A program made the translations under genes and the position numbers. DNA of 64,000 nt, taken from positions 20,276 to 84,275 of the forward strand of contig JAGHUM010000068.1 of the NCBI GenBank assembly GCA_018064855.1, given 5' to 3'. A model generated the notes under the pieces. That model saw only the letters and a program-made list of their open reading frames with translations, did no database searches and had not been told where the DNA came from. Positions within the stretch are counted from its first letter, which is position 1. The number at the start of each line of letters is the position of its first letter. Below, one piece after another: positions 48,291 to 63,872 of this stretch. The stretch is from Candidatus Physcocola equi (GTDB taxonomy: Bacteria > Bacteroidota > Bacteroidia > Bacteroidales > Paludibacteraceae).

Positions 48291-49064
48291 TTAAAATCCG
48301 AAAGATGCAGTGAAACTGATGGTTGGACGTGGAAGCGCCACGGTTACATTGGCAACAGGGCGTTCAACGATAAGATAGCCACCATCGATAGGCTGGAACC
48401 ACATACCGTTAGCTTCATAGTAGTTGATGCGATTAACGTTGACAACGCGCGCTCCGTATGGAAGAGCTGCTACAATAACGTTTTCTGGCATGTAGATTTC
48501 CTGATAGCCGTATGAAGGAACATAGCTGTAGTAAACTCCGTTCCAATGGTAGTAGGCTACATTGTCGATGTAAAACACATGGGCACGTGGGTCGATGTGG
48601 TGATGGTAAACCGGACGTGGTCCGTAGTGGCGTGGCACGAAGTGATGATGAACTGCCGGAGCGTGGTGGTGCACAGGTGCCGGAGCGTGGTGGTGCACAG
48701 GTGCTGGAGCGTGATGATGCACAGGTGCTGGAGCGTGATGGTGCACAGGAGCCGGAGCGTGGTGGTGCACAGGTGCTGGAGCGTGATGGTGCACAGGTGC
48801 TGCATGGTGATGAACAGGCTCGTGGCGAACAGGTGCCGCTGCGCGAGGAGCATGAACTGGTGCAGGTGCGCTGTGCTTTGGAGCCGCGCTTGAGTGAGAA
48901 GAGCGAGTTGACGCAGGAGCGCCACCTCTGCTATGAGTGCCGCGAGCATCACCTCTTGGCTGATGCTGCTGAACTGATCCACGACCTTGTGCGTTTATGG
49001 TTGGTGCAGAAACGAAAAGCATGAATGAAGATGCTAATGCTGCTATGATGAGTTTTGCGTTCAT
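48291..49064 (-). CDS. Exported DUF6515-like protein with His-rich repeats
   Basis: 257 residues with a signal peptide ending TINAQ. Residues about 30-85 are Gln/Gly/Ser/His-rich. About 85-145 carry six or more APVHHHAP repeats, giving over 30 His. From about 150 the Tyr-rich domain is shared with the paralogue: ARVFYIDN-type start (HVFYIDNVAYY), GVYYSYVPSYGYQEIYMPEN, YYEANGMWFQPIDGGYLIV, ending TASFGF. The His repeats could bind metal ions (Zn, Ni, Cu) or simply form an extended linker; nothing in the sequence decides. Own sigma-54-like promoter and terminator. Confidence 0.85.
   Translation of the reverse strand: MNAKLIIAALASSFMLFVSAPTINAQGRGSVQQHQPRGDARGTHSRGGAPASTRSSHSSAAPKHSAPAPVHAPRAAAPVRHEPVHHHAAPVHHHAPAPVHHHAPAPVHHHAPAPVHHHAPAPVHHHAPAPVHHHAPAVHHHFVPRHYGPRPVYHHHIDPRAHVFYIDNVAYYHWNGVYYSYVPSYGYQEIYMPENVIVAALPYGARVVNVNRINYYEANGMWFQPIDGGYLIVERPVANVTVALPRPTISFTASFGF
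48655..48798 (-). repeat. Six tandem 24-base repeats encoding APVHHHAP
   Basis: Six consecutive 24-base units (48655, 48679, 48703, 48727, 48751, 48775) differ from each other at one to three bases. The multiple of three keeps the frame. This is coding repeat, not CRISPR: no spacers. Confidence 0.9.
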
Positions 49065-51039: not shown

Positions 51040-51813
51040 TTATCCTCTTACTTTTTCAATAAGCGCCTTTGCTGCTTCCTGGATGGTGGCGTGCTCTTCT
51101 AATGAACGGATGAACGCGCTGCCGATGATGCAACCTCTTGAGTGTGCTGCTGCGGCATCGAATGTCTCTTTGTTTGATACACCGAAACCAACCAATGTTG
51201 GATTTTTGAGGTTGAGACTCTCGATGCGCTTGAAGTAAGCTTGCTTGGTTTCGTTGAAACTCTTTTGCGCTCCGGTTGTTGATGCTGAAGACACCATATA
51301 AACGAAGCCACTGCTGGCTTCATCGATTTCGTGAACGCGAGCATCTGGCGTTTCTGGAGTGACAAGAAGCACGAAACGCAAATCGTATTTCTTAATGATA
51401 GGGTCGAATTCTTCTTTGTAGATGTCGAGCGGAATATCAGGAATGATGAATCCGTCAATGCCAAGTTCTACCGCCTTTTTGCAGAGGTTTTCAAAACCAT
51501 ACTGAAGTGTGGGATTGATATAACCCATGAAAAGGAGTGGCATGTCGGTGTGCTTTCGAACGTCTTTCAACTGCTCGAAGAGGACTTTCTGACTCATACC
51601 GTTTTCAAGTGCCACTTGGTTGCTGTGCTGGATGACCGGGCCGTCGGCCATCGGGTCGGAGAAAGGAACACCGATTTCTAACAAATCGACACCTTCTGCG
51701 TCAAGCGTGGTGATGATTCCCATGGTACTGTCGAGTTTTGGGAAACCGGCAGTGAAAAAGATGGAAAGAATGTCTTTCTTCCCACTCTGGAAAAGTCTGT
51801 CTATTCTGTTCAT
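51040..51813 (-). CDS. trpA: Tryptophan synthase alpha subunit
   Basis: 257 residues from MNRIDRLFQ; the longer frame upstream overlaps trpF and is not used. Cleaves indole-glycerol phosphate to indole. Seen: FFTAGFPKLDST, LEIGVPFSDPMADGPVIQ with the catalytic Glu and Asp, GYINP, DGFIIPDIPLD, LLVTPETPDARV, SGFVYMVSS and VGFGVSNKET. Last gene of trpBEGDCFA; its partner trpB is the first gene, 4.5 kb away. Confidence 0.96.
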   Translation of the reverse strand: MNRIDRLFQSGKKDILSIFFTAGFPKLDSTMGIITTLDAEGVDLLEIGVPFSDPMADGPVIQHSNQVALENGMSQKVLFEQLKDVRKHTDMPLLFMGYINPTLQYGFENLCKKAVELGIDGFIIPDIPLDIYKEEFDPIIKKYDLRFVLLVTPETPDARVHEIDEASSGFVYMVSSASTTGAQKSFNETKQAYFKRIESLNLKNPTLVGFGVSNKETFDAAAAHSRGCIIGSAFIRSLEEHATIQEAAKALIEKVRG

Positions 51814-51826
51814 ATTTTGTCTTTTT

Positions 51827-52456
51827 TTATTTTTCGGATTTATGGATTTGTTGGAAAAAAGTTTGGAGTTGACCAATGTTTTTGACCGCTGGGGAAATCT
51901 CAAATTTGCTGTTGAGATCAACGCCAACCATTGCCGGAAAATTCAGATTCTTGACCAATTCCGCATCATCGGGACCGATGCCTCCGCTTAGCAGGAAAGG
52001 AGTGTTGATGGGGTAGTTGTTGAGCATGTTCCAGTCAAACTTCATTCCGCTACCTCCCACTTTTGGGGTTTTTGTGTCGATCAGGCAAAAGTCCACGCAC
52101 CCTGCGTAATCGGCAATTCTCTCAATGTCTTCCTCTCCGGCTATACTGAATGCTTTGATGACTGAAATTCCTCTGCTTTTTAGTTTTTTGCACAAATCTG
52201 CACTTTCGGATCCATGCAATTGGACAGCGTCCAGTTTGAAATCCGCTATTTTTTTCAAAATGCTTTCTTCGCTTTCGTTGACCATGACTCCTACTTTTTT
52301 TGCTGGTGCAAATGATTCGGACAGATGGGACAGTGGAGTTTCGCCGACAAAACGTGATGATTTGGGGTAGAAAATCAACCCGATGAAGTCGGGGTTCAAT
52401 TTCTTCAATTGTGCGATGTTTTGTTCATCGCGCATTCCACAAACTTTGATAATCAT
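51827..52456 (-). CDS. trpF: Phosphoribosylanthranilate isomerase
   Basis: 209 residues. Amadori rearrangement of phosphoribosylanthranilate. Seen: IIKVCGMRDEQNI (catalytic Cys), DFIGLIFYPKSSRFVG, VGVMVNES, DAVQLHGSES, DFCLIDTKTPKVGGSGMKFDWN (catalytic Asp) and PFLLSGGIGPDDA. 13 bases separate it from trpC and from trpA. Confidence 0.95.
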   Translation of the reverse strand: MIIKVCGMRDEQNIAQLKKLNPDFIGLIFYPKSSRFVGETPLSHLSESFAPAKKVGVMVNESEESILKKIADFKLDAVQLHGSESADLCKKLKSRGISVIKAFSIAGEEDIERIADYAGCVDFCLIDTKTPKVGGSGMKFDWNMLNNYPINTPFLLSGGIGPDDAELVKNLNFPAMVGVDLNSKFEISPAVKNIGQLQTFFQQIHKSEK

Positions 52457-52469
52457 AATTTGTCTTCCT

Positions 52470-53255
52470 TTAGTTGGTCACAGCATCGATAAACTCGCCT
52501 AAAGCCTTGGCTGGATCTTGCTGTTTCATGAAGTTCTCGCCCATCAGAAAGCCTTGGAAGCCTTCTTTACGGAGCATTTTTACAGTCTCAGGGTTGGATA
52601 TTCCACTTTCGCTCACTTTGAGGTATTCATCCGGAATACTGTGGCAGAGGTTGATGGATGCTTGCAAATCCACTTCGAAAGTCTTGAGATTGCGGTTGTT
52701 GATGCCTACCATATCCACACCAGGAAAGATGTGCCCCACTTCTTCTGGTTCGTAGAGCTCGAGTAAGGTTTCCAAACCCATATCTTTAGCTTGAAGTGCC
52801 AGACGGTGGCAGCTCTCAATGTCGAGAATGCTGGCTATGAGAAGCACAACATCGGCACCTGATGCTTTTGCGAGGTATAGTTGATATTCGTCGATGAGAA
52901 ACTCCTTGAAAAGAATGGGAGTGTGCTCGACAACTCCTCTTGCGGCTTTCACGTCTGCCGCCCCTCCAGCAAAGAAATCTTTGTCGGCAAGAACGGAGAT
53001 GCCGCTGGCACCGTTTGCTTCGTAACCGGGTGTGATTTCAGTGACAATCGCCCCCTCCTTTATGAACCCTTTTGAGGGAGATTTGCGTTTGAATTCAGAA
53101 ATGATACCAGATTTGGATGCGGCCAGACTTGCTTTCATGGAGAAACCGTCGCGATGAAAATACTCACTTTCCTTCAAAACTTCAATAGGAAGTTCTTTTT
53201 TCATTGTGGCGAGTTCGGCGCGCTTGTTCTCAACTATCTTGTCTAATATGGTCAT
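52470..53255 (-). CDS. trpC: Indole-3-glycerol phosphate synthase
   Basis: 261 residues. Closes the indole ring. Seen: the N-terminal helix ILDKIVENKRAELA, IISEFKRKSPSKGFI (catalytic Lys in EFKRKSPS), ILFKEFLIDEYQLYLAKASGADVVLLI, VGINNRNLKTFEVD and VSESGISNPE. It is separate from trpF, not fused as in enterobacteria. Middle of the trp operon. Confidence 0.95.
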   Translation of the reverse strand: MTILDKIVENKRAELATMKKELPIEVLKESEYFHRDGFSMKASLAASKSGIISEFKRKSPSKGFIKEGAIVTEITPGYEANGASGISVLADKDFFAGGAADVKAARGVVEHTPILFKEFLIDEYQLYLAKASGADVVLLIASILDIESCHRLALQAKDMGLETLLELYEPEEVGHIFPGVDMVGINNRNLKTFEVDLQASINLCHSIPDEYLKVSESGISNPETVKMLRKEGFQGFLMGENFMKQQDPAKALGEFIDAVTN

Positions 53256-53267
53256 AACTGGTTTCTA

Positions 53268-54269
53268 TTAGGAATTGAGTTCCACGTATTTCTTGAAGTT
53301 GCTCCATGCTTTGCCGCTATCGATACTTTCGCGGGCAATGTCGATACATTCCTGAATGCTTTTATCTTGTTCGATTGTTTTGATGGCAAAAGCAGCGTTT
53401 GCCAGCACGACGTTTTTCTGACTTGCCGATGCTGTGTTCTGAAGAACGGAGTCGAAAATGGCGATAGCGTCTTCTTTGGTCTGCTTGGCGCCTCCACAAA
53501 TTTCGCCAGGTCCTGCTTTGTCGAAACCTATTTGTTCTGGGGTGAACACTTTTTCAAAATCGTTGGAAGTCACCTTGAAGTCGCCAGTGAGCGAGATTTC
53601 ATCGTATCCGTCGAGACTGTTGACGATGGAGTAGCGGATGCCAAGTTTCTGATATACGTTGCTGTAGAGACGCATTTGATTGAGGTTGGCAACGCCCAGC
53701 ATCTGGTAGTCTGGCTGAGACGGATTGACCAAAGGGCCCAACAAATTGAAGCAGGTTGGGATTTGAAGCGCTTTTCTGATTGGACCAACAAACTTCATGG
53801 CACGAGCAAAAAGTTGTGCGTGCAGGTAGATGAAATTGCATTCGTCGAGCGAACGGAGAATTTGGTCGTGGTCGGCTGTGAATTTCACGCCATGACCTTC
53901 AATGACGTTACTTGCTCCGCTGACGGATGTCGCTGCATAGTTGCCGTGTTTTGCCACCTTATATCCGGCGCCGGCAACAACCGCACAGGCACAAGTGGAG
54001 ATATTGAATGTGTTTTTCCCGTCGCCTCCCGTGCCTACAATATCCAAAACCTTGAAAGGCTTGGTGTCAACTGGCACGCCAGTCTCAAGGATACCGTCGC
54101 GCAAACCTAACAGCTCATCTACTGTTATGCCTCGCATCTGAAGCGCCATGATAAAGGCGGTCATCTGTTCTTGTGAATATTGTTCTTTTGTGATGTTCAA
54201 AAGAATTTGCTTGGTCTCTTCACGGGTGAACTCGTCGTGGTTGACGAGACGTGTAAGTATTTGTTTCAT
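53268..54269 (-). CDS. trpD: Anthranilate phosphoribosyltransferase
   Basis: 333 residues. Attaches phosphoribose to anthranilate. Seen: the PRPP loop DIVGTGGDGKNTFNIST, KHGNYAATSVSGASNVIEGHGV, FARAMKFVGPIRKALQIPTCFNLLGPLVNPS and the metal-binding DEISLTG. Not fused to TrpG. 51 bases after trpG, 12 bases before trpC. Confidence 0.95.
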   Translation of the reverse strand: MKQILTRLVNHDEFTREETKQILLNITKEQYSQEQMTAFIMALQMRGITVDELLGLRDGILETGVPVDTKPFKVLDIVGTGGDGKNTFNISTCACAVVAGAGYKVAKHGNYAATSVSGASNVIEGHGVKFTADHDQILRSLDECNFIYLHAQLFARAMKFVGPIRKALQIPTCFNLLGPLVNPSQPDYQMLGVANLNQMRLYSNVYQKLGIRYSIVNSLDGYDEISLTGDFKVTSNDFEKVFTPEQIGFDKAGPGEICGGAKQTKEDAIAIFDSVLQNTASASQKNVVLANAAFAIKTIEQDKSIQECIDIARESIDSGKAWSNFKKYVELNS

Positions 54270-54320: not shown

Positions 54321-54890
54321 TTATCCTTTGTGAGAAAGCCAATTTTTGATCATCTCATTCCCATCAGGAGTCAATACACTTTCCGGATGAAACTGGATGC
54401 CGTGGATGTCGTATTCTTTGTGCTTCAGTCCCATAATATATCCTTCCTCACTTTCGGCTGTGATTTCAAGGCATTTTGGAAAGCCCTCTTTGTCAACTAC
54501 CCACGAGTGGTAACGGCCGATTTGCACGTTGCCCTCTGAATTGCCGAAAATATAATCGTTGCCGAGTGTGTGGCAGGGAGTTTGCACCCCATGATAAACT
54601 TGGCTGAGATTGGTGAGTTTGCCGCCAAAGGCTTCTCCGATTGCCTGATGTCCGAGGCATACGCCCAATATAGGTTTCTTGCCAGCATAGTTTCGGATGA
54701 CATCGAGGAGCAGACCGGCTTCTGATGGAATGCCCGGGCCAGGGGAAAGAATGATTTTATCGAACGTCTCGAGTTGTTTCATTTCAAACTGGTCGTTTCG
54801 GTAAACCGTCACTTCGGCGCCGAGTTCCTTCACCAAGTGGGAAAGATTGTAAGTGAAAGAGTCGTAGTTGTCTATGATTACTATTTTCAT
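54321..54890 (-). CDS. trpG: Anthranilate synthase glutamine amidotransferase subunit
   Basis: 189 residues. Supplies ammonia to TrpE. Seen: IDNYDSFTYNLSHLVKELG, LSPGPGIPSEAG, the nucleophile loop GVCLGHQAIGEAFGG and the His-Glu pair in HGIQFHPESVLTPDG. It may also serve 4-amino-4-deoxychorismate synthase (PabA role), as is common when only one such gene exists, but that cannot be judged here. Confidence 0.95.
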   Translation of the reverse strand: MKIVIIDNYDSFTYNLSHLVKELGAEVTVYRNDQFEMKQLETFDKIILSPGPGIPSEAGLLLDVIRNYAGKKPILGVCLGHQAIGEAFGGKLTNLSQVYHGVQTPCHTLGNDYIFGNSEGNVQIGRYHSWVVDKEGFPKCLEITAESEEGYIMGLKHKEYDIHGIQFHPESVLTPDGNEMIKNWLSHKG

Positions 54891-54906: not shown

Positions 54907-56301
54907 TTACATGTTTTCCGCCATGATGATGGCTTTTTTCAGCGCTCCCAATTTGCTGTTGACCTCTTGCAACTCATATTCGTCGTTGCTCTTGGCAACC
55001 ACACCGCAACCCGCTTGGAACCAAAGTTCTCCGTTTCTGCTGACGAAAGAGCGAATGGTGATGGCTTGGTTGAGGTTCCTGTTGAGCCCGATGAATCCGA
55101 TGCAACCACCATAGGCGCCACGGTTGTGTGGCTCCATTTCACTGATGAGCTGCATTGCACGGACTTTAGGCGCTCCGCTCAAAGTACCGGCAGGAAATGT
55201 GTCAATGAATGCCTTGATAGGATCTGCACCATTCTCCAGTTGTCCGCTGACGCGACTCACAAGGTGAATGACATGGCTGTAGTATTGCATATCTTTGTAG
55301 AAGTCCACTTTGACGTCGTGACAGTTGCGGCTGAGGTCGTTTCTTGCCAAATCGACGAGCATGACGTGTTCGGCATTCTCTTTGGGGTCGTTGCGAAGGA
55401 AGATGGCGTTTTTCTCGTCTTGCTCCTTGTTGCCTGTGCGTTTTGTTGTGCCGGCAATAGGATCGATATATGCCCTCCCGTTTTCGATGCGGCAGTGTGT
55501 TTCAGGGGATGACCCGAAGATGCGGAAACCGCCAAAGTCGAAATAGAAGAGGTATGGACTTGGGTTGATGCTTCGGAGCGCGCGGTAAAGTTTGAAATCG
55601 TCGCCTTCATATTTCTGAATGAAACGGCGGGATGGCACGATTTGAAACACATCGCCACGAAGACAGTGCTTTACACACTTGCGGATAGTGGCTTTGAACT
55701 CTTCATCGGTAACTGTGCTGGAGGTGTCTCCCACAGGTCTGAAACTGAAGGTGCGAATGTTGTTGCGGTTGAGATTTTTCTCCGTTTCGTCGATATGGTC
55801 GTTTTCTCCTTCATTCAGCAATTCAATGATGGTCATCTTGTTGTTGAAGTGGTCGAACATGATGACCGTTTTGAACAAGATGTAAAGCATATCCGGGGCG
55901 TCGTTTTTCGCTTCCGTGGTGTCTTTCACATCAATGTTTTCAAAGTAACGAACTGCATTGAATGTGGTATAACCATACAAGCCGCAGAAATTTGAATCTG
56001 GGCCTTCAACGTGGATCTCGTTCAGAAAATCGTTGATGGCTTTATCGCTGAGGTAATCTTTGTTGACGTCGCGTTCGGTTTTGCTGCCATCCGGGAATTG
56101 GCAAATGGCTTTGCCATGGTTGATGGCGACAGAAGCGATAGGCTGAATGCCAATGAACGAACGACTGTTTTCTCCGCTATGGTAGTCCGAACTTTCCATA
56201 AGTGCGCTTTGCGGATAGAAATCTCGCAAATTCATATATGCACTAACGGGAGTGCACATATCCGCCAGGAAAGATTTGCTTTTGGTCGTATAACTGAACA
56301 T
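54907..56301 (-). CDS. trpE: Anthranilate synthase component I
   Basis: 464 residues. Converts chorismate to anthranilate with ammonia from TrpG. Seen: SADYHSGENSRSFIGIQP-type N-terminus (Trp feedback site region; here LMESSDYHSGENSRSFIG), VVPSRRF-type block (FQIVPSRRFIQKYEG), PSPYLFYFDFGGFRIFGSSPE, IDPIAGTTKRTGNKEQDE, LVDLARNDLSRNC, LSGAPKVRAMQLISE and the end RAYGGCIGF-type block (NRGAYGGCIGF). Between trpB (18 bases) and trpG (16 bases). Confidence 0.95.
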   Translation of the reverse strand: MFSYTTKSKSFLADMCTPVSAYMNLRDFYPQSALMESSDYHSGENSRSFIGIQPIASVAINHGKAICQFPDGSKTERDVNKDYLSDKAINDFLNEIHVEGPDSNFCGLYGYTTFNAVRYFENIDVKDTTEAKNDAPDMLYILFKTVIMFDHFNNKMTIIELLNEGENDHIDETEKNLNRNNIRTFSFRPVGDTSSTVTDEEFKATIRKCVKHCLRGDVFQIVPSRRFIQKYEGDDFKLYRALRSINPSPYLFYFDFGGFRIFGSSPETHCRIENGRAYIDPIAGTTKRTGNKEQDEKNAIFLRNDPKENAEHVMLVDLARNDLSRNCHDVKVDFYKDMQYYSHVIHLVSRVSGQLENGADPIKAFIDTFPAGTLSGAPKVRAMQLISEMEPHNRGAYGGCIGFIGLNRNLNQAITIRSFVSRNGELWFQAGCGVVAKSNDEYELQEVNSKLGALKKAIIMAENM

Positions 56302-56319: not shown

Positions 56320-57513
56320 TTATTCGCCAAGATGGAAGTAATTGGCATAAGTGTTCATGTCTTTGTCTCCACGTCCGGAAACTGTGAGAACAACTACATC
56401 GTCTTTTTTGAATTTGCATTTAGGAAGGACAGCCAAGGCGTGTGCGCTTTCAATAGCAGGGATAATACCTTCAGTTTTGGTGAGGTCGAGAGCTGCGTTG
56501 AGCGCTTCATCATCGGTGATGGCATATACTTTTGATCGTCCTTTTTCAGCAAGGAATGCGTGAATAGGTCCAACGCCAGGATAGTCGAGACCTGCAGATA
56601 CAGAGAATGCTTCTGCAATCTGTCCGTCTTCGTCCATCATGATGAGCGTGCGGCTGCCATGAAGCACGCCTTCTCGCCCAAGGTGGATAGTGGCGGCGCT
56701 CTTTGTCATGTCGTCAAGACCTTCGCCTGCAGCTTCCGCAGCGATGAGTTTGACCTCCTCGTTTTCAATATAATGATAGAAAGTTCCGGCGGCATTGCTG
56801 CCTCCGCCCACGCAGGCAATCAGGTAGTCTGGATTCTCTCTGCCTTCCTGTGCTTTGAGTTGTTTTTTGATTTCTTCGCTGATGACCGATTGGAAACGTG
56901 CCACCATGTCTGGAAATGGATGTGGACCAACAACAGAACCAATGATGTAGTGTGTGTCGGCTGGGTTGCAGCACCAGTCGCGAATAGCCTCGTTGGTGGC
57001 GTCTTTGAGAGTTCCGTTTCCTGAAGTGACAGGGATTACCTCCGCACCCAACATACGCATACGTTGCACATTCAGGTATTGGCGTTTTACGTCGGTCGCT
57101 CCCATGTAAACCACACATTTCATATTCATAAGGGCGCATACTGTAGCGGTGCCTACACCATGCTGTCCAGCTCCGGTTTCGGCAACGATACGTGTCTTCC
57201 CCATCTTCTTGGCCAGCAACAACTGACCAAGCGCATTGTTGAGTTTGTGCGCGCCGGTGTGGCAGAGGTCTTCACGTTTCAAATAGATCTTTGCTCCGTA
57301 TTTCTCGCTAAGTCTTTTTGCAAAGTAAAGTGGGGTAGGACGACCAACATAGTCGTGAAGGAGCTGCTCCAATTCTGCCTTGAATGAAGGCTCGTTCATG
57401 ATTTTGAGGTAGTTCTCTTTTAATTCTGTAATGTTCTTTTGGAGAATTTCGGGAACATAGGCTCCACCGAAACGGCCATAATAGCCTTTCTCGTTGATTG
57501 CGTATTTTTCCAT
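56320..57513 (-). CDS. trpB: Tryptophan synthase beta subunit
   Basis: 397 residues, the TrpB1 class that pairs with TrpA. Joins indole and serine using PLP. Seen: [29 protein letters not shown], the PLP lysine in [25 protein letters not shown], the phosphate-binding [15 protein letters not shown] and [10 protein letters not shown]. In this phylum trpB leads the operon. It is preceded by a leader peptide gene and an attenuator. Confidence 0.97.
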
Positions 57514-57561: not shown

Positions 57562-57595
57562 AAAAAAGGTCTGTCGTGAGTTCCGACAGACCTTT
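57562..57595 (-). terminator. trp operon attenuator (terminator hairpin in the leader)
   Basis: AAAGGTCTGTCG (57565-57576) pairs perfectly with CGACAGACCTTT (57584-57595), loop of seven. Read leftward the 12-bp stem is followed by six T. It sits between the trp promoter and trpB, 40 bases after the leader-peptide stop. The leader also carries, around that stop (57633-57640), an 8-base stretch complementary to the loop and inner right arm of this hairpin (57574-57581), a possible antiterminator contact. Confidence 0.85.
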
Positions 57596-57634
57596 ATGTT
57601 GTTAATGCTTAGCTAACACACAAGGAGGAGCGAC

Positions 57635-57694
57635 TCACGAATTTTTATTCCGCAAGCGCCACCACCAAAAGTTATTTGAACTAAACTGATTCAT
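57635..57694 (-). CDS. trpL: trp leader peptide with three consecutive Trp codons
   Basis: 19 codons, ATG at 57692-57694 and TGA at 57635-57637: MNQFSSNNFWWWRLRNKNS. Three adjacent TGG codons (residues 10-12) in a 19-residue peptide directly before the trp terminator hairpin are the classic mark of ribosome-mediated attenuation: lack of charged tRNA-Trp stalls the ribosome there and lets transcription reach trpB. The Trp codons (GGUGGUGGCG) can pair with CGCUCCUCC just after the stop, giving a 1:2 stem as in the enterobacterial model. The start lies about 16 bases after the expected transcription start; there is no Shine-Dalgarno. Confidence 0.85.
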   Translation of the reverse strand: MNQFSSNNFWWWRLRNKNS

Positions 57695-57715
57695 GTTTTC
57701 TATTCTTTGTTTTTG

Positions 57716-57723
57716 CAAAGTTA
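57716..57723 (-). promoter_or_regulatory. -7 box of the trp operon
   Basis: The minus strand reads TAACTTTG (TAnnTTTG). A TTG lies 23 bases upstream instead of 19-20. The predicted start is near 57710, just before trpL. The rest of the 358-base gap to 58082 holds only AT-rich sequence and the next gene's promoter. Confidence 0.6.
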
Positions 57724-58032
57724 AATAAAAAATGAAATGATTGTAACAAATAATTGAAAAAAATACGATTCTTTAACACGGCTCATTCATTTGCTAGCGA
57801 TTTTTATTCTCTTTTTCTCTTGTTTGCCACTTTTAGATGTGACGATATGCCCATCTTGCCGAAAAAAACGACCACTTGGAAATGAATATGAGGTGGAAAA
57901 AATGATGAGGGGAGTGGAGAATGACAAAGGAAACGTCCGGTGCTAGAATCAAAATGAAATTGATAAACGACATCCCTTAATTATTGTTCCAAAAATTAAT
58001 CGTAATATTGACAATATGTTAGTAAGTATTAT

Positions 58033-58897: not shown

Positions 58898-59223
58898 AAT
58901 ATTTATCACTATATACGCTAGCTCTTTTTTTTCTTCAAGGATCATGTGTAAGACGACATGATTTGGATATAGAAGATAAAAAATTTGACTATATTTTTAA
59001 ACCCAATGAGTCAGATTCGTTATTGTTTTCAGAAGCAAAAAGACTAAACAATGGGTATTATTATGATCAAAGATTCTTTAGCTACGAAGAGGTTTTGTTA
59101 CTTCAAGAATGCTGGAAAAGAAGGTTACAAGATTATCGTTCTGATACTATTAATATTTATAATTACTATAACGAACTTATAATTAATAATCAAATAGAAA
59201 CAATGTTTGAACGTATAAGATGA
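58894..59223 (+). CDS. Small putative lipoprotein, possible partner of the C10 protease
   Basis: 109 residues. The short hydrophobic start ends in LQGSC, a lipobox-like site, so it is probably lipid-anchored after Cys18. The body is charged and Tyr-rich with no family I recognise. It is coupled by ATGA overlaps to genes on both sides. C10 proteases of streptococci and Bacteroides are often encoded beside a small inhibitor; the coupling and size make an inhibitor or chaperone role plausible here, but there is no sequence evidence beyond position. Confidence 0.6.
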   Translation: MKYLSLYTLALFFLQGSCVRRHDLDIEDKKFDYIFKPNESDSLLFSEAKRLNNGYYYDQRFFSYEEVLLLQECWKRRLQDYRSDTINIYNYYNELIINNQIETMFERIR

Positions 59224-60908
59224 ATAGAATTTACTTAATACTAATTATTTATCTTTGTTGTAATTCGATAAAAGCATCAGATTATATTGAAGGTGATCAC
59301 CTTCTTACAATTAAAGGAAGTGATATTCTATGGGGACAAAGTTATAATAATGAAGGAAACTGTTATCCGGCATATAATTCGGCATGTCCATCAGGATATT
59401 CGGGGGATCCGTGTGGTCATAATTACGTGGGGTGTGGAGCCGTAGCAATGGGTATGTGTTTGAGGAAATGGGAATGGCCTTATGTTTCACAATATGGCTA
59501 CTATCGATGGGATCTCATGTATTCTCAATTGCGTACTGGACATACAGATTTCACGCCCAATTTTCTCAGAGACTGTGGGACAGCTTCAAATATTAGATAT
59601 GAAACTTTTTTAGGCGTTCATGAAATATTAGGTCGTCCAATAACAGGTTCATGGACATTGATTCGTGAATTAGAAAATGGCATAAACGCATTCGGATATA
59701 ATTCATTGAGATATAAAAAAGAAGATTGGAATTATGGAGACGCTTGGATTAATTTAATTAAATCAGAAATATCATGTGGAAGGCCTGTGTTGTTTTTCGG
59801 AGAAGATTTTGACGATATTCTATCAATTATTAGTTCACATTATTATGTAGTTGATGGTTATTATTCCAATCTATTTCATTGTAATTTTGGATGGAGAGGG
59901 AGTGACAACGCAAATTTTCAAAATATTTTGAATAGATTTAATCGTAATGTAGAAGTCATAGGTTTTTCTCCAAATTTTGTGGATTTACCAAATCTTGTTC
60001 AAGATGTTAATTTTGAAATCATAGATCAAAATGTACAGATTGCAGCAAAACATGTGATTTCTTTGCCTGCATCGGGTAAAGTTCTCGTGAACAACACTGA
60101 CAATAGACACATTGCATTAGTTGCTGGAGATTCAATCGTTTTGAAGAACGGCGTTCAACTCACTAATTGTCAATTAATTGTAAGGCCAGAATTGGCTAAA
60201 GCACAACACATCACATACCAACAAATAAATAATATTGTTCAAGGTCAATGTAGAAGAAGTCCAAATTACAATAATGTTCGATTTCATACACAAAATGCAG
60301 ACTCTTGGGAATGTAGTGTTTTTAATAGATATGGCGAAAGAATTTGGAGGAATGCAGGTGTTATTAGAAATGACACAGCATGTGTATGGGATGGATCGTC
60401 CGTAGATCCCCTTTTATATGCAGAAACATATTGGCTAGATGTGATTTTCAAGAATAGTTATGGATCGATAGTTAATGTTTCAACTCATGTAGCATATGAT
60501 TTATCTCCTTGCGTAATAAATTACGCACAACTTAACAGATTGATATCTCCTAATTGTGTGGATGGGGTTAATGATTTTTTAGAATTTGAAACTGATGCAG
60601 AAACATGGTCATGTAAGATTTTCAAAAGAAACGGAACACAAATTTGGTCCTCTAGCGGTAATGTTGTAGATGGGAGAGCAAAAGTCTGGGACGGTTCTGC
60701 ATTTAATTCCTCATATTTGACAAACGCAGAAAGATATAATTTTGAAGTCAAATTTCGTACATCTGATGGAGGATATGTGGAAACAACTGGAGATGTTTAC
60801 TATTTTAGTGGAGATTGCGTAAATGGGATTAACGATTCAGAGATAATGAGAAATATTGAAGAAATAGAAAGAATTATGCCAGGTAATTCCACTAGCTATA
60901 ATTATTGA
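59220..60908 (+). CDS. C10 (streptopain)-type cysteine protease without propeptide
   Basis: 562 residues with a signal peptide ending IKAS. The catalytic domain starts at once: LLTIKGSDILWGQSYNNEGNCYP matches the mature start of C10 enzymes. Catalytic Cys72 in GHNYVGCGAVAMGM, His207 in SSHYYVVDGYY, and FHCNFGWRG (Asn222, Trp225) match the C10 pattern GCVATA, H-(x)n-VDGY and NWGWGG. The usual propeptide of about 100 residues between signal and catalytic domain is absent. Residues about 340-440 and 440-540 are two related FlgD-Ig-like repeats (WECSVFNRYGERIW...VWDGSS and WSCKIFKRNGTQIW...VWDGSA). No obvious T9SS signal at the end. AT-rich, last of the coupled trio. Confidence 0.8.
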   Translation: MNRIYLILIIYLCCNSIKASDYIEGDHLLTIKGSDILWGQSYNNEGNCYPAYNSACPSGYSGDPCGHNYVGCGAVAMGMCLRKWEWPYVSQYGYYRWDLMYSQLRTGHTDFTPNFLRDCGTASNIRYETFLGVHEILGRPITGSWTLIRELENGINAFGYNSLRYKKEDWNYGDAWINLIKSEISCGRPVLFFGEDFDDILSIISSHYYVVDGYYSNLFHCNFGWRGSDNANFQNILNRFNRNVEVIGFSPNFVDLPNLVQDVNFEIIDQNVQIAAKHVISLPASGKVLVNNTDNRHIALVAGDSIVLKNGVQLTNCQLIVRPELAKAQHITYQQINNIVQGQCRRSPNYNNVRFHTQNADSWECSVFNRYGERIWRNAGVIRNDTACVWDGSSVDPLLYAETYWLDVIFKNSYGSIVNVSTHVAYDLSPCVINYAQLNRLISPNCVDGVNDFLEFETDAETWSCKIFKRNGTQIWSSSGNVVDGRAKVWDGSAFNSSYLTNAERYNFEVKFRTSDGGYVETTGDVYYFSGDCVNGINDSEIMRNIEEIERIMPGNSTSYNY

Positions 60909-61319: not shown

Positions 61320-63872
61320 TTACAATCCTACTAAAGATCCTACCTGATAGATGAGAAAAGCCATAAGCCAAGCCAGGCAAGTGGTGTAAACGACACTGAG
61401 CCCAGCCCATCTCCAACTGTTGGTCTCATTTTTTATGGCGGCAATAGTTGCTGCACATGGGAAATAGAGCAATACAAACACAAGGAAAGCGAAGGCTGTC
61501 AATGATGTGTAAGCGTGTGTGCCATCGGCTCGCAGTTCATTGTGCATTTTGTTGCTGAGCTGCTGAACGGAAGCTTCGTCGTCATCCAAGTCGTTGCCAC
61601 CAGTGTAAAGTACATTCATGGTGCTGACGACAATCTCTTTTGCAACAGAACCCGCCAAGAGAGATACCCCCATTTGCCATGTGAATCCCAAAGGTCTGAT
61701 GGCTGGTTCAATGGTTTTCCCGATTTTCCCGATGTATGAGTTTTCTTTTTGTCGGAGTGCTGCGGTGGCCAATGGTGTTTCTCCGTTCCCGTCTGGCATT
61801 GTGTACTGCTCGGTAGAGTCCATTTTCATGGCCTCAAATTCAGTGTCGCGTGGAAAATACTCCAAAAACCAGACTATGATGGATGCTACAAGAATGATAC
61901 CACCCATTTTTTTCAAGTATTCTTTGGTCTTGTCCCACACGTGTGTGAGTACAGATTTCGCGGTTGGCATTCGATAAGGAGGAAGTTCCAATACAAATGG
62001 GGCTTCGTCTTCTTTAAGAAAATACCTGAATATTTTTGCGAAGACAAATGCCATGAACACGCCGATGAAGTAGAGCGAAAACATCGCCAATGCCGGATGT
62101 TGAGGGAAAAAGGCAACAGCAAAAAGGGTGTAGATGGGGATGCGAGCGCTGCACGACATGAACGGAAGCACCATTATGGTGATGAGACGGCTCTTTTTGC
62201 TTTCAATGATACGAGTGCCCATGATGGCTGGAACATTACAACCGAACCCCATGATGAGCGGTATGAATGATTTCCCGTGTAATCCCATTTTGTGCATGAC
62301 TTTATCCATTATGAAGGCTGCGCGTGCCATGTACCCGGAGTCTTCCATGAAAGAAATGAACAAGTAGAGGATAAGAATGTTCGGCAAAAAGACGATGACA
62401 CCTCCCACACCTCCTATGATGCCGTCTATGATGAGATCTTTCAGCATTCCGTTTGGCATTGTTGCTGCAATGGAGTCTTTTAAGAAACCCACCCCTGCGT
62501 CAATCCATTCCATAGGATAGTTTCCCAAAGAGAATGTGCACCAAAACATGAAAGCGATGAACATCAGGAAGATGGGAAATCCGAGGTATTTGTTTGTGGC
62601 AAAGCGGTCAATCTCTTTGGTGATTTTCCTGCCATCCACAGCGGCAGGGGTGAATGTCTCGCGAAGAGCCCCTGCGATGAAACCATATCGTGCGTTGGCA
62701 ACAGCCGACTCTGCATCTTCTCCAAGTTCTGTCTCGATTCGTTTCTGTTCCTCTTTTTGGATGGAAAGAATCTCCTCTCCATTAGGCAGTGCTGAGGCGA
62801 TTTTCATTGCTTCTTGGTCACCTTCAATCAGTTTTATGGCGAGGAAACGAGTAGAGTAGCGGGCGCGTATGCTTTGGTCTTTTTTGATGGCCTCTTGCAG
62901 TCTCTTTTCACTTTCCTCTATGACATTGCCATGGTGAATGTGAATGTGGTGGACAGTGTCGAACACAGGCTTGTGCGCCTCTCCGGCTTTGTGCTTGTCT
63001 GGGTTGTTTTCAAACTCGGAGATGAATTTTTCTTTGTCGATTCCCCCCTCGTTGCTCAAATAATAACTGCCTTCAAAAATGTTGATGATGATGTGGAACA
63101 GCGTGTCGATTCCTCTTCCGGAACGTCCCACTGTGGGTATGGCTGGCACACCCAATAAAAGGCCTAATTGTTCATGGTCGAGTTTGTCTCCCTTCTGCTG
63201 CAACTCGTCAAACATATTGAGCGCGATGACCATTGGCATGTTCATGTCGATGAGCTGAGTGGTGAGATACAGGTTGCGTTCAAGGTTGCTCGAATCCACA
63301 ACGTTTAGAATGACGTCTGGGGTGTCTTCCACCAGATTCTTCCTGACATAAACCTCTTCGGGAGAATAAGAAGTGAGCGAATAGGTGCCTGGCAAATCGA
63401 CCAGCGTGAAATCGTACCCCTCAAAATAGAAATGCCCTTCTTTGGCTTCTACGGTGACACCGCTATAGTTGCCGACGTGCTCGGAAGCATGAGAAATGTG
63501 ATTGTATAGACTCGTTTTCCCACAGTTGGGGTTACCCACCAAAGCCACTCTGATTTTCTTGCTTTGCTTGTCGGCTTCTTTCCTGAAGATTTCGGAAACG
63601 TCGATAGTCCCTTTATAGTCGGTTTTGATATTGCTGAGTTTGAACTCGTCTTCCGACATGATTTCGATCATGTCTCCTTCAGAACGTCGGAGGGAAACAT
63701 TGTAATCCATGATATGATATTCGACGGGGTCTTGCAAAGGTGCGTTTTGTATCGCTTTTACCTCAGCACCGCGTACGAATCCCATTTCAATAATGCGTTT
63801 GCGGAATCCTCCATTGCCACGCACTTTTACTATGATTGCTTTTTGTCCTGTTTTGAGTTCGGATAGTTTCAT
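61320..63872 (-). CDS. feoB: Fused FeoA-FeoB ferrous iron transporter
   Basis: 850 residues. Residues 1-75 are an FeoA (SH3-like) domain (LKTGQKAIIVKVRGNGGFRKRIIEMGFVRGAEV); a linker follows, then the FeoB GTPase: G1 GNPNCGKTS (113-121), G2 GVTVEAKEG (138-146), G3 DLPGTYSL (159-166), G4 NMFDE near 218. A helical domain follows, then the membrane part from about 430 with two gate regions (MGFGCNVPAIMGTR and AGSVAKEIVVSTM). It imports Fe2+ across the inner membrane. FeoA-FeoB fusion is common in Bacteroidetes. It is preceded by two palindromic operator-like sites and followed by the Cys-rich peptide. Confidence 0.96.
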   Translation of the reverse strand: MKLSELKTGQKAIIVKVRGNGGFRKRIIEMGFVRGAEVKAIQNAPLQDPVEYHIMDYNVSLRRSEGDMIEIMSEDEFKLSNIKTDYKGTIDVSEIFRKEADKQSKKIRVALVGNPNCGKTSLYNHISHASEHVGNYSGVTVEAKEGHFYFEGYDFTLVDLPGTYSLTSYSPEEVYVRKNLVEDTPDVILNVVDSSNLERNLYLTTQLIDMNMPMVIALNMFDELQQKGDKLDHEQLGLLLGVPAIPTVGRSGRGIDTLFHIIINIFEGSYYLSNEGGIDKEKFISEFENNPDKHKAGEAHKPVFDTVHHIHIHHGNVIEESEKRLQEAIKKDQSIRARYSTRFLAIKLIEGDQEAMKIASALPNGEEILSIQKEEQKRIETELGEDAESAVANARYGFIAGALRETFTPAAVDGRKITKEIDRFATNKYLGFPIFLMFIAFMFWCTFSLGNYPMEWIDAGVGFLKDSIAATMPNGMLKDLIIDGIIGGVGGVIVFLPNILILYLFISFMEDSGYMARAAFIMDKVMHKMGLHGKSFIPLIMGFGCNVPAIMGTRIIESKKSRLITIMVLPFMSCSARIPIYTLFAVAFFPQHPALAMFSLYFIGVFMAFVFAKIFRYFLKEDEAPFVLELPPYRMPTAKSVLTHVWDKTKEYLKKMGGIILVASIIVWFLEYFPRDTEFEAMKMDSTEQYTMPDGNGETPLATAALRQKENSYIGKIGKTIEPAIRPLGFTWQMGVSLLAGSVAKEIVVSTMNVLYTGGNDLDDDEASVQQLSNKMHNELRADGTHAYTSLTAFAFLVFVLLYFPCAATIAAIKNETNSWRWAGLSVVYTTCLAWLMAFLIYQVGSLVGL

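Follow-up and report, generated by a model that had tools for sequence, protein, structure and literature searches.

The trp operon and the leader upstream of trpB

The window (the whole stretch of DNA analysed here, 64,000 nucleotides from Candidatus Physcocola equi of the Bacteroidota) carries a trp operon on its minus strand, in the order trpB-trpE-trpG-trpD-trpC-trpF-trpA. Its genes are given below with their family matches.

56320..57513, minus strand: trpB, the first structural gene, ATG at 57513 (TIGR00263, 598.5 bits)
54907..56301, minus strand: trpE-like gene (best NCBIfam match TIGR00564, 410.9 bits, under its cut-off)
54321..54890, minus strand: trpG (TIGR00566, trpG/pabA, 196.6 bits)
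53268..54269, minus strand: trpD (TIGR01245, 287.8 bits)
52470..53255, minus strand: trpC (NF001377, 260.4 bits)
51827..52456, minus strand: trpF-like gene (NF002298, 152.8 bits, under cut-off)
51040..51813, minus strand: trpA, ATG at 51813 (TIGR00262, 215 bits); the listed ORF begins at a TTG upstream of this ATG

Upstream of trpB, the following elements of a leader were found on the same strand.

57747..57750, minus strand: TTTG resembling a -33 element, 23 nt 5′ of the -7 box (from the sequence)
57723-57716, minus strand: -7 promoter box TAACTTTG, 21 nt 5′ of the leader ATG (from the sequence)
57635..57694, minus strand: leader ORF MNQFSSNNFWWWRLRNKNS, ATG at 57694, 19 codons and the stop codon TGA at 57637-57635
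57667-57659, minus strand: three adjoining TGG codons, TGGTGGTGG (from the sequence)
57649..57666, minus strand: region 1, the Trp codons and the next codons, pairing with 57641-57624 if the ribosome is absent (predicted fold)
57621..57641, minus strand: region 2, the putative antiterminator 5′ strand, containing the TGA stop codon (duplex prediction)
57640-57633, minus strand: 5′ strand of the putative antiterminator core, TCGTGAGT
57581-57574, minus strand: 3′ strand of the putative antiterminator, ACTCACGA, made of terminator loop and the first 3 nt of the 3′ arm
57565..57595, minus strand: intrinsic terminator hairpin, a perfect 12-bp stem with the arms 57595-57584 and 57576-57565
57562..57567, minus strand: T-run of the terminator (from the sequence)
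57585..57714, minus strand: match to the Rfam model RF01692, model positions 1-131 of 131, 40.6 bits against a gathering cut-off of 49

The minus strand upstream of trpB does contain the -7 box, the 19-codon WWW frame, the perfect 12-bp terminator and the T-run on which the first-pass annotation had built a trp attenuator. The TAACTTTG box is probably the promoter of the leader. The terminator loop has 7 nucleotide residues (GAACTCA). In the predicted fold the Trp codons pair, as proposed, with CGCUCCUCC 3′ of the stop codon, and region 1 falls within the RF01692 hairpin in the model alignment. The window leader folds at -52.3 kcal/mol, compared to a mean of -31.9 kcal/mol for shuffled sequences (z -6.0), and 0/200 shuffles were as good.

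Relation to known trp leaders

The enterobacterial trp leader, E. coli trpL, combines a Trp-codon leader peptide with competing hairpins and an intrinsic terminator. The window leader would work alike. Compared to E. coli trpL, however, it lacks a Shine-Dalgarno (SD) sequence, has a Bacteroidota promoter box and precedes an operon with trpB first. Its stop codon lies inside the antiterminator strand, and the pairing reaches the terminator loop and the 3′ arm. The E. coli family (RF00513) was absent among the 14 Rfam matches obtained for the window leader at E values up to 10.

Attenuation of this type had been presented as a surprise for the Bacteroidota. The mechanism appears sound, but the surprise is not, since this kind of switch is already predicted for the phylum as Bacteroid-trp (RF01692). 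This Rfam family, described as "Bacteroidete tryptophan peptide leader RNA", stems from Weinberg et al. 2010 (PMC2864571), and the Bacteroid-trp row in a table of that paper reads "y" for RNA, "y" for cis-regulatory and "n" for switch, with Bacteroidetes as the taxon. In Flavobacterium psychrophilum, another member of the same phylum, a Bacteroid-trp element upstream of the trp operon has been likened to the attenuation of E. coli (PMC6414381); the cited passage contains no test of the element. A search of open-licence PMC papers found no experimental test in Bacteroidota.

The window leader shares with Bacteroid-trp the phylum, the site before trp biosynthesis genes, the leader start, the Trp codons and the hairpin of regions 1 and 2. 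It differs in what is modelled: the Rfam model stops in the 5′ arm of the terminator and pairs neither the terminator nor the antiterminator. The match extends over the full length of the consensus structure, with some pairs marked as non-standard, at E values of 0.0009-0.0014 and below the cut-off score. The leader of a closely related locus of the same genus (L003, trpB 92% identical) scores 54.5 bits, above the cut-off, which was passed by three of the 20 loci scanned (L022, L003 and L019); L004 and L007, which also belong to the genus, scored below it. Thus, the window leader is called here an ortholog of a Bacteroid-trp member, and is not filed under RF01692 by score because its 40.6 bits lie below 49.

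Conservation of the leader before trpB

Is the leader common before trpB in other genomes? A total of 87 trpB loci were compared, taken from named contigs and genomes of the same genus. Of these, 83 were usable; L001, L008 and L009 repeat other loci, and L056 has only 3 nt upstream. A leader with a terminator was found in 68 loci, which leaves 62 distinct leaders after the removal of six near-identical ones.

An ORF with an ATG and at least two adjoining Trp codons (hereafter WW leader) is present upstream of trpB in 66/83 loci but in only 7/830 shuffled sequences, and off-target codon runs gave 0-2 cases per set in the same test. In the genus itself, all six genomes examined, including that of the window, have a WWW leader. 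Loss of the Trp codons in relatives had been named in the first-pass annotation as evidence against an attenuator; this was not borne out, given the six genomes and the 66/83 loci that carry them. The Trp run is three codons long in 50 of the 62 distinct leaders, two in 10, four in one and one in one.

The distribution of the leader follows gene order. The trpB gene heads a trp cluster in 66/83 loci, and 62 of these have the leader. Where another trp gene lies no more than 700 nt 5′ of trpB (11/83 loci), the leader is missing throughout; four of the six loci without a trp neighbour carry one. The cluster heads that lack a counted leader are four: L034, which has WRW, L047, which has WWW without an ATG, L028, whose WWW ORF lies further upstream, and L025, whose upstream sequence is 197 nt only. 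Since the absences follow gene order, the leader tracks the head of the operon, as would be expected of a regulator.

A TANNTTTG box lies 5′ of the leader ATG in 53/62 leaders compared to 82/1240 shuffled sequences, and 51 of the 53 boxed leaders have a TTG 17-24 nt upstream of the box, a spacing counted without a shuffle control. An SD-like motif was found in 0/67 leader ORFs, near-identical ones included, and the start context of these 67 ORFs is A-rich. Certain residues flank the Trp run repeatedly: N often precedes it and, in many trpB leaders, R follows. In an alignment of 45 leaders, few columns are conserved beyond the Trp run, the stop motif and the terminator.

Covariation of the terminator and the antiterminator

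This alignment (A1) contains 45 of the 62 distinct leaders. It omits L005 and L007, which are stored in the opposite orientation, six leaders with a different region 2 (L026, L032, L038, L039, L040 and L047) and, to keep the size small, nine Prevotella-like leaders (L059, L064, L069, L077, L080, L081, L083, L086 and L087).

In A1, 97.0% of the terminator cells are paired and 11/12 pairs show double-sided changes. For the antiterminator core, TCGTGAGT with ACTCACGA, 86.7% of the cells are paired and 4/8 pairs show double-sided changes, figures which exclude a group known to pair differently. When the antiterminator partner is slid along the alignment, pairing falls to 26-53%. The core has 32 double-change cells, and 0/500 shuffles were as high on pairing, double-change cells or covariation score. 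Two of the five covariation measures are not clearly above the shuffles: 57/500 shuffles were as high in the number of pairs changed on both sides, and 500/500 in further pair types. Kinship among the aligned sequences can inflate such covariation counts.

The covariation includes the leader stop codon. The column of its middle base pairs with the terminator loop as G-C in 18 rows, G-U in 15 and A-U in nine, and is otherwise (broken) in three of the 45 rows. Wherever this column is A (nine rows), the opposite loop base is U, and eight of these As are part of an in-frame TAA stop codon. Among the 62 distinct leaders, the stop codon lies in frame inside the region-2 motif in 31 and within 11 nt of this motif in 60. 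Thus, the covariance check on trpB leaders that had been suggested for this locus came out positive for the terminator and for the antiterminator, down to the middle base of the stop codon.

The pairing is not uniform among the leaders. In rows resembling P. ruminicola, part of the core helix is broken, and the pairing is with the 5′ arm and the loop instead. In L026, L032 and L038-L040, which lie outside A1, a CGATG-type region-2 motif pairs with the terminator. Duplex prediction also extends the antiterminator into the 5′ arm of the terminator in many leaders. The 8-base antiterminator of the first-pass annotation, limited to the loop and the inner arm, therefore survives as the core pairing, while its restriction to these parts was dropped because the duplexes showed the additional pairing with the 5′ arm.

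Folding and modelling of the proposed switch

For the window sequence taken singly, the antiterminator is not distinguished from chance: 33/200 shuffled linkers equal the real one in binding to the terminator (z -1.0, not significant), and the switch of the window leader in the folding model is matched by 5/12 of its shuffled linkers. The case for the antiterminator therefore rests on comparison. Across the 62 distinct leaders, the duplex energy of linker and terminator has a mean z of -1.7 against shuffles. Since whole-duplex energy with single-sequence shuffles was not decisive, position-specific covariation was used, as given above. A median of 14/61 non-cognate terminators bind the linker better than the cognate one. 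The cognate terminator beats the mean of the other groups (the groups being labels of this analysis) in 53/62 leaders, and the cognate mean was reached in 0/2000 permutations of these related sequences.

The switch was modelled in partial transcripts of the 62 leaders by masking the ribosome footprint in ViennaRNA. The mean number of antiterminator pairs is 11.6 with the second Trp codon in the A site, 2.0 with the stop codon in the A site and 2.9 without a ribosome. In 59/62 leaders the number with the ribosome on the Trp codon is more than 2 above that of the stop state. A strict two-way criterion (both differences above 5) holds for 46/62 leaders, the window leader among them, compared to 66/744 shuffled linkers; the 16 leaders that fail it include L003 and L004 of the same genus. 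The permissive ribosome positions begin at the first Trp codon and end about 15 nt past it. In the completed transcript, terminator pairs outnumber antiterminator pairs in all three states in 62/62 leaders, so any switch must be kinetic. The choice is likewise kinetic in the classical attenuation model.

Proposed mechanism and alternative explanations

The leader has the parts of a ribosome-mediated attenuator for trpBEGDCFA and most likely works as one (probability about 0.9), sensing charged tRNA-Trp via a peptide with three Trp codons. Of the features that mark this class, a short leader frame with adjoining Trp codons is present as a predicted ORF; the terminator with a mutually exclusive antiterminator is found by comparison and is weak in the window sequence alone. 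This interpretation, already that of the first-pass annotation, is supported by the conserved WW leaders, the covariation and the antiterminator that forms in the model with the ribosome on the Trp codons.

When Trp-tRNA is sufficient, the ribosome would reach the stop codon and cover region 2, so that the terminator hairpin forms and stops transcription near 57562. When Trp-tRNA is scarce, the ribosome would stall on the Trp codons and cover region 1, leaving region 2 free. The free region 2 would then pair with the emerging loop, the inner 3′ arm and part of the 5′ arm, and RNA polymerase would enter trpB. Without a ribosome, regions 1 and 2 would pair with each other, and termination would be the default. 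Read-through into the operon would thus occur mainly when tryptophan is short, by a kinetic choice. The steps that involve the ribosome or the polymerase, and attenuation by the window leader itself, are inferred from sequence and models.

Besides attenuation, the terminated leader might act as a small RNA, or the peptide might act elsewhere in the cell. A trans role of this sort has been reported for peTrpL of Sinorhizobium meliloti (PMC7298713) and provides a precedent. It is unlikely here: no target is indicated by these data, and the scarcity of conserved columns outside the Trp run, the stop motif and the terminator argues against it. A plain intrinsic terminator, acting as a fixed brake before trpB and accompanied by a chance ORF without any Trp regulation, would agree with the strong terminator that wins in the completed transcript in every modelled state, and with the single-sequence antiterminator tests, which were not significant. 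However, chance ORFs would hardly yield WW frames in 66/83 loci against 7/830 shuffled sequences, with 0-2 off-target runs per set, and both the covarying antiterminator and the TANNTTTG box that precedes 53/62 leader ATGs speak against a simple brake, which I regard as very improbable. An arrest peptide of the TnaC kind responds to free tryptophan while it is being made and halts the ribosome that makes it. Such a peptide, for which codon identity would be secondary, could explain a short Trp-containing ORF before Trp genes and the recurring residues beside the Trp run, but it deserves hardly any credence since the Trp run is constant while the flanking residues vary, and since the leader also has an intrinsic terminator and an antiterminator that covaries.

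Ribosome-mediated attenuation is therefore the preferred reading of the leader. What is added to the known family is an explicit, testable model of the antiterminator, and an unannotated leader is now tied to a known, under-detected switch.

Distribution of WW leaders in the class

RF01692 matches only 14/295 genomes of the class at an E value of 0.001, and 10 of these are over the cut-off. A model (R1) was built from 45 leaders with the terminator included. R1 matches 192/295 class genomes, a number that is no leader count because many of the matches cover only the terminator part. Among the matches listed, 70 full-length ones were examined and 53 of them have a WW leader; nine more full-length matches among those listed stand outside the 70. 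The 53 WW leaders lie before trpE (40), trpD (8) or trpB (5, including that of the window), L112 being counted via its WWW leader ORF. Two genomes (G045 and G261) have two WW leaders each, before trpE and before trpD. Overall, at least 51/295 class genomes have a WW leader before trpE, trpD or trpB. Predicted leaders of the Bacteroid-trp kind are thus present in more genomes of the phylum than RF01692 detects. One full-length R1 match (L156), before a gene which I take to be trpS-like, has no ORF with a Trp run and was rejected.

Candidate leaders before other amino acid genes

Codon runs that match the pathway were also found before other amino acid genes. Upstream of ilvD, runs of at least five Val, Ile or Leu codons occur in 12/16 loci (3/160 shuffled). 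Upstream of hisG, runs of at least three His codons occur in 8/20 loci (0/200 shuffled). A Cys-rich ORF precedes a sulfite-reductase-like gene, presumably a sulfite reductase from its sequence, in 9/17 loci (1/170 shuffled); these are 17 of 18 loci, as the locus of the window's own genome (L225, 34% identical) was left out. These his, ilv and Cys leaders are leads, that is, candidates for attenuation.

In the window's own genome, the ORF MFSHISNIGSNIVVVVVKNY followed by a terminator precedes ilvD (L197, on contig G000:C98), and this leader is likely an Ile/Val attenuator. The His-run leaders belong to relatives (L172-L175, L178, L180, L181 and L184); a His-run leader was found in 0/5 hisG loci of the same genus, own genome included. 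Tandem Cys-rich leader ORFs, some of them mixed Cys/Met, were found in L160 (G217:C22), L208, L209, L218, L220 and L223, and in L160 and L208 each of the two tandem Cys leaders has its own terminator. No leader reached a family cut-off in Rfam scans that covered eight his loci, seven ilv loci and L160. Below the cut-off, which is 55 bits for both families, Thr_leader shows some likeness to the his leaders of L178 (40.2 bits) and L180 (25.4 bits), and Phe_leader to L160 (31.1 bits).

An Asn-run ORF, MKTQTHNNNRFFALASR, with a terminator lies before asnB in one locus (L168, G133:C205). Nine further asnB loci were inspected, eight of them readable upstream, and 0/8 have a run of three Asn codons. 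The Asn leader was therefore taken as chance.

The Bacteroidota largely do without SD-dependent initiation. It seems fairly probable that they run a general system of leader-peptide attenuation, in which SD-less ORFs carry pathway-matched codon runs (Trp, Ile/Val, His and an often tandem Cys or Cys/Met), end in a stop codon within the antiterminator strand or at its edge, and are followed by an intrinsic terminator. If this is true, tight coupling of the ribosome and RNA polymerase would be a working principle of a largely SD-free phylum. The trp leader alone is of modest interest, and of more if the sibling set holds. In that case, the position of the ribosome on SD-less mini-ORFs would underlie much of the control of amino acid genes in a major gut phylum, and such control would need close coupling of transcription and translation.

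Other genes in the window

Three further genes of the window were characterised. On the plus strand, 59220-60908 encodes a protein of 562 aa that carries a Peptidase_C10 domain as well as the type IX secretion domain CHU_C. On the minus strand, 61320-63872 encodes a fusion protein with a FeoA domain N-terminal to FeoB (Pfam matches: FeoA at residues 1-71, FeoB_N at 108-260). A DUF6515 protein is encoded at 48291-49064 on the minus strand; its gene contains a 24-bp tandem repeat (48654-48802, 6.2 copies) which is translated into repeats of the APVHHH type.
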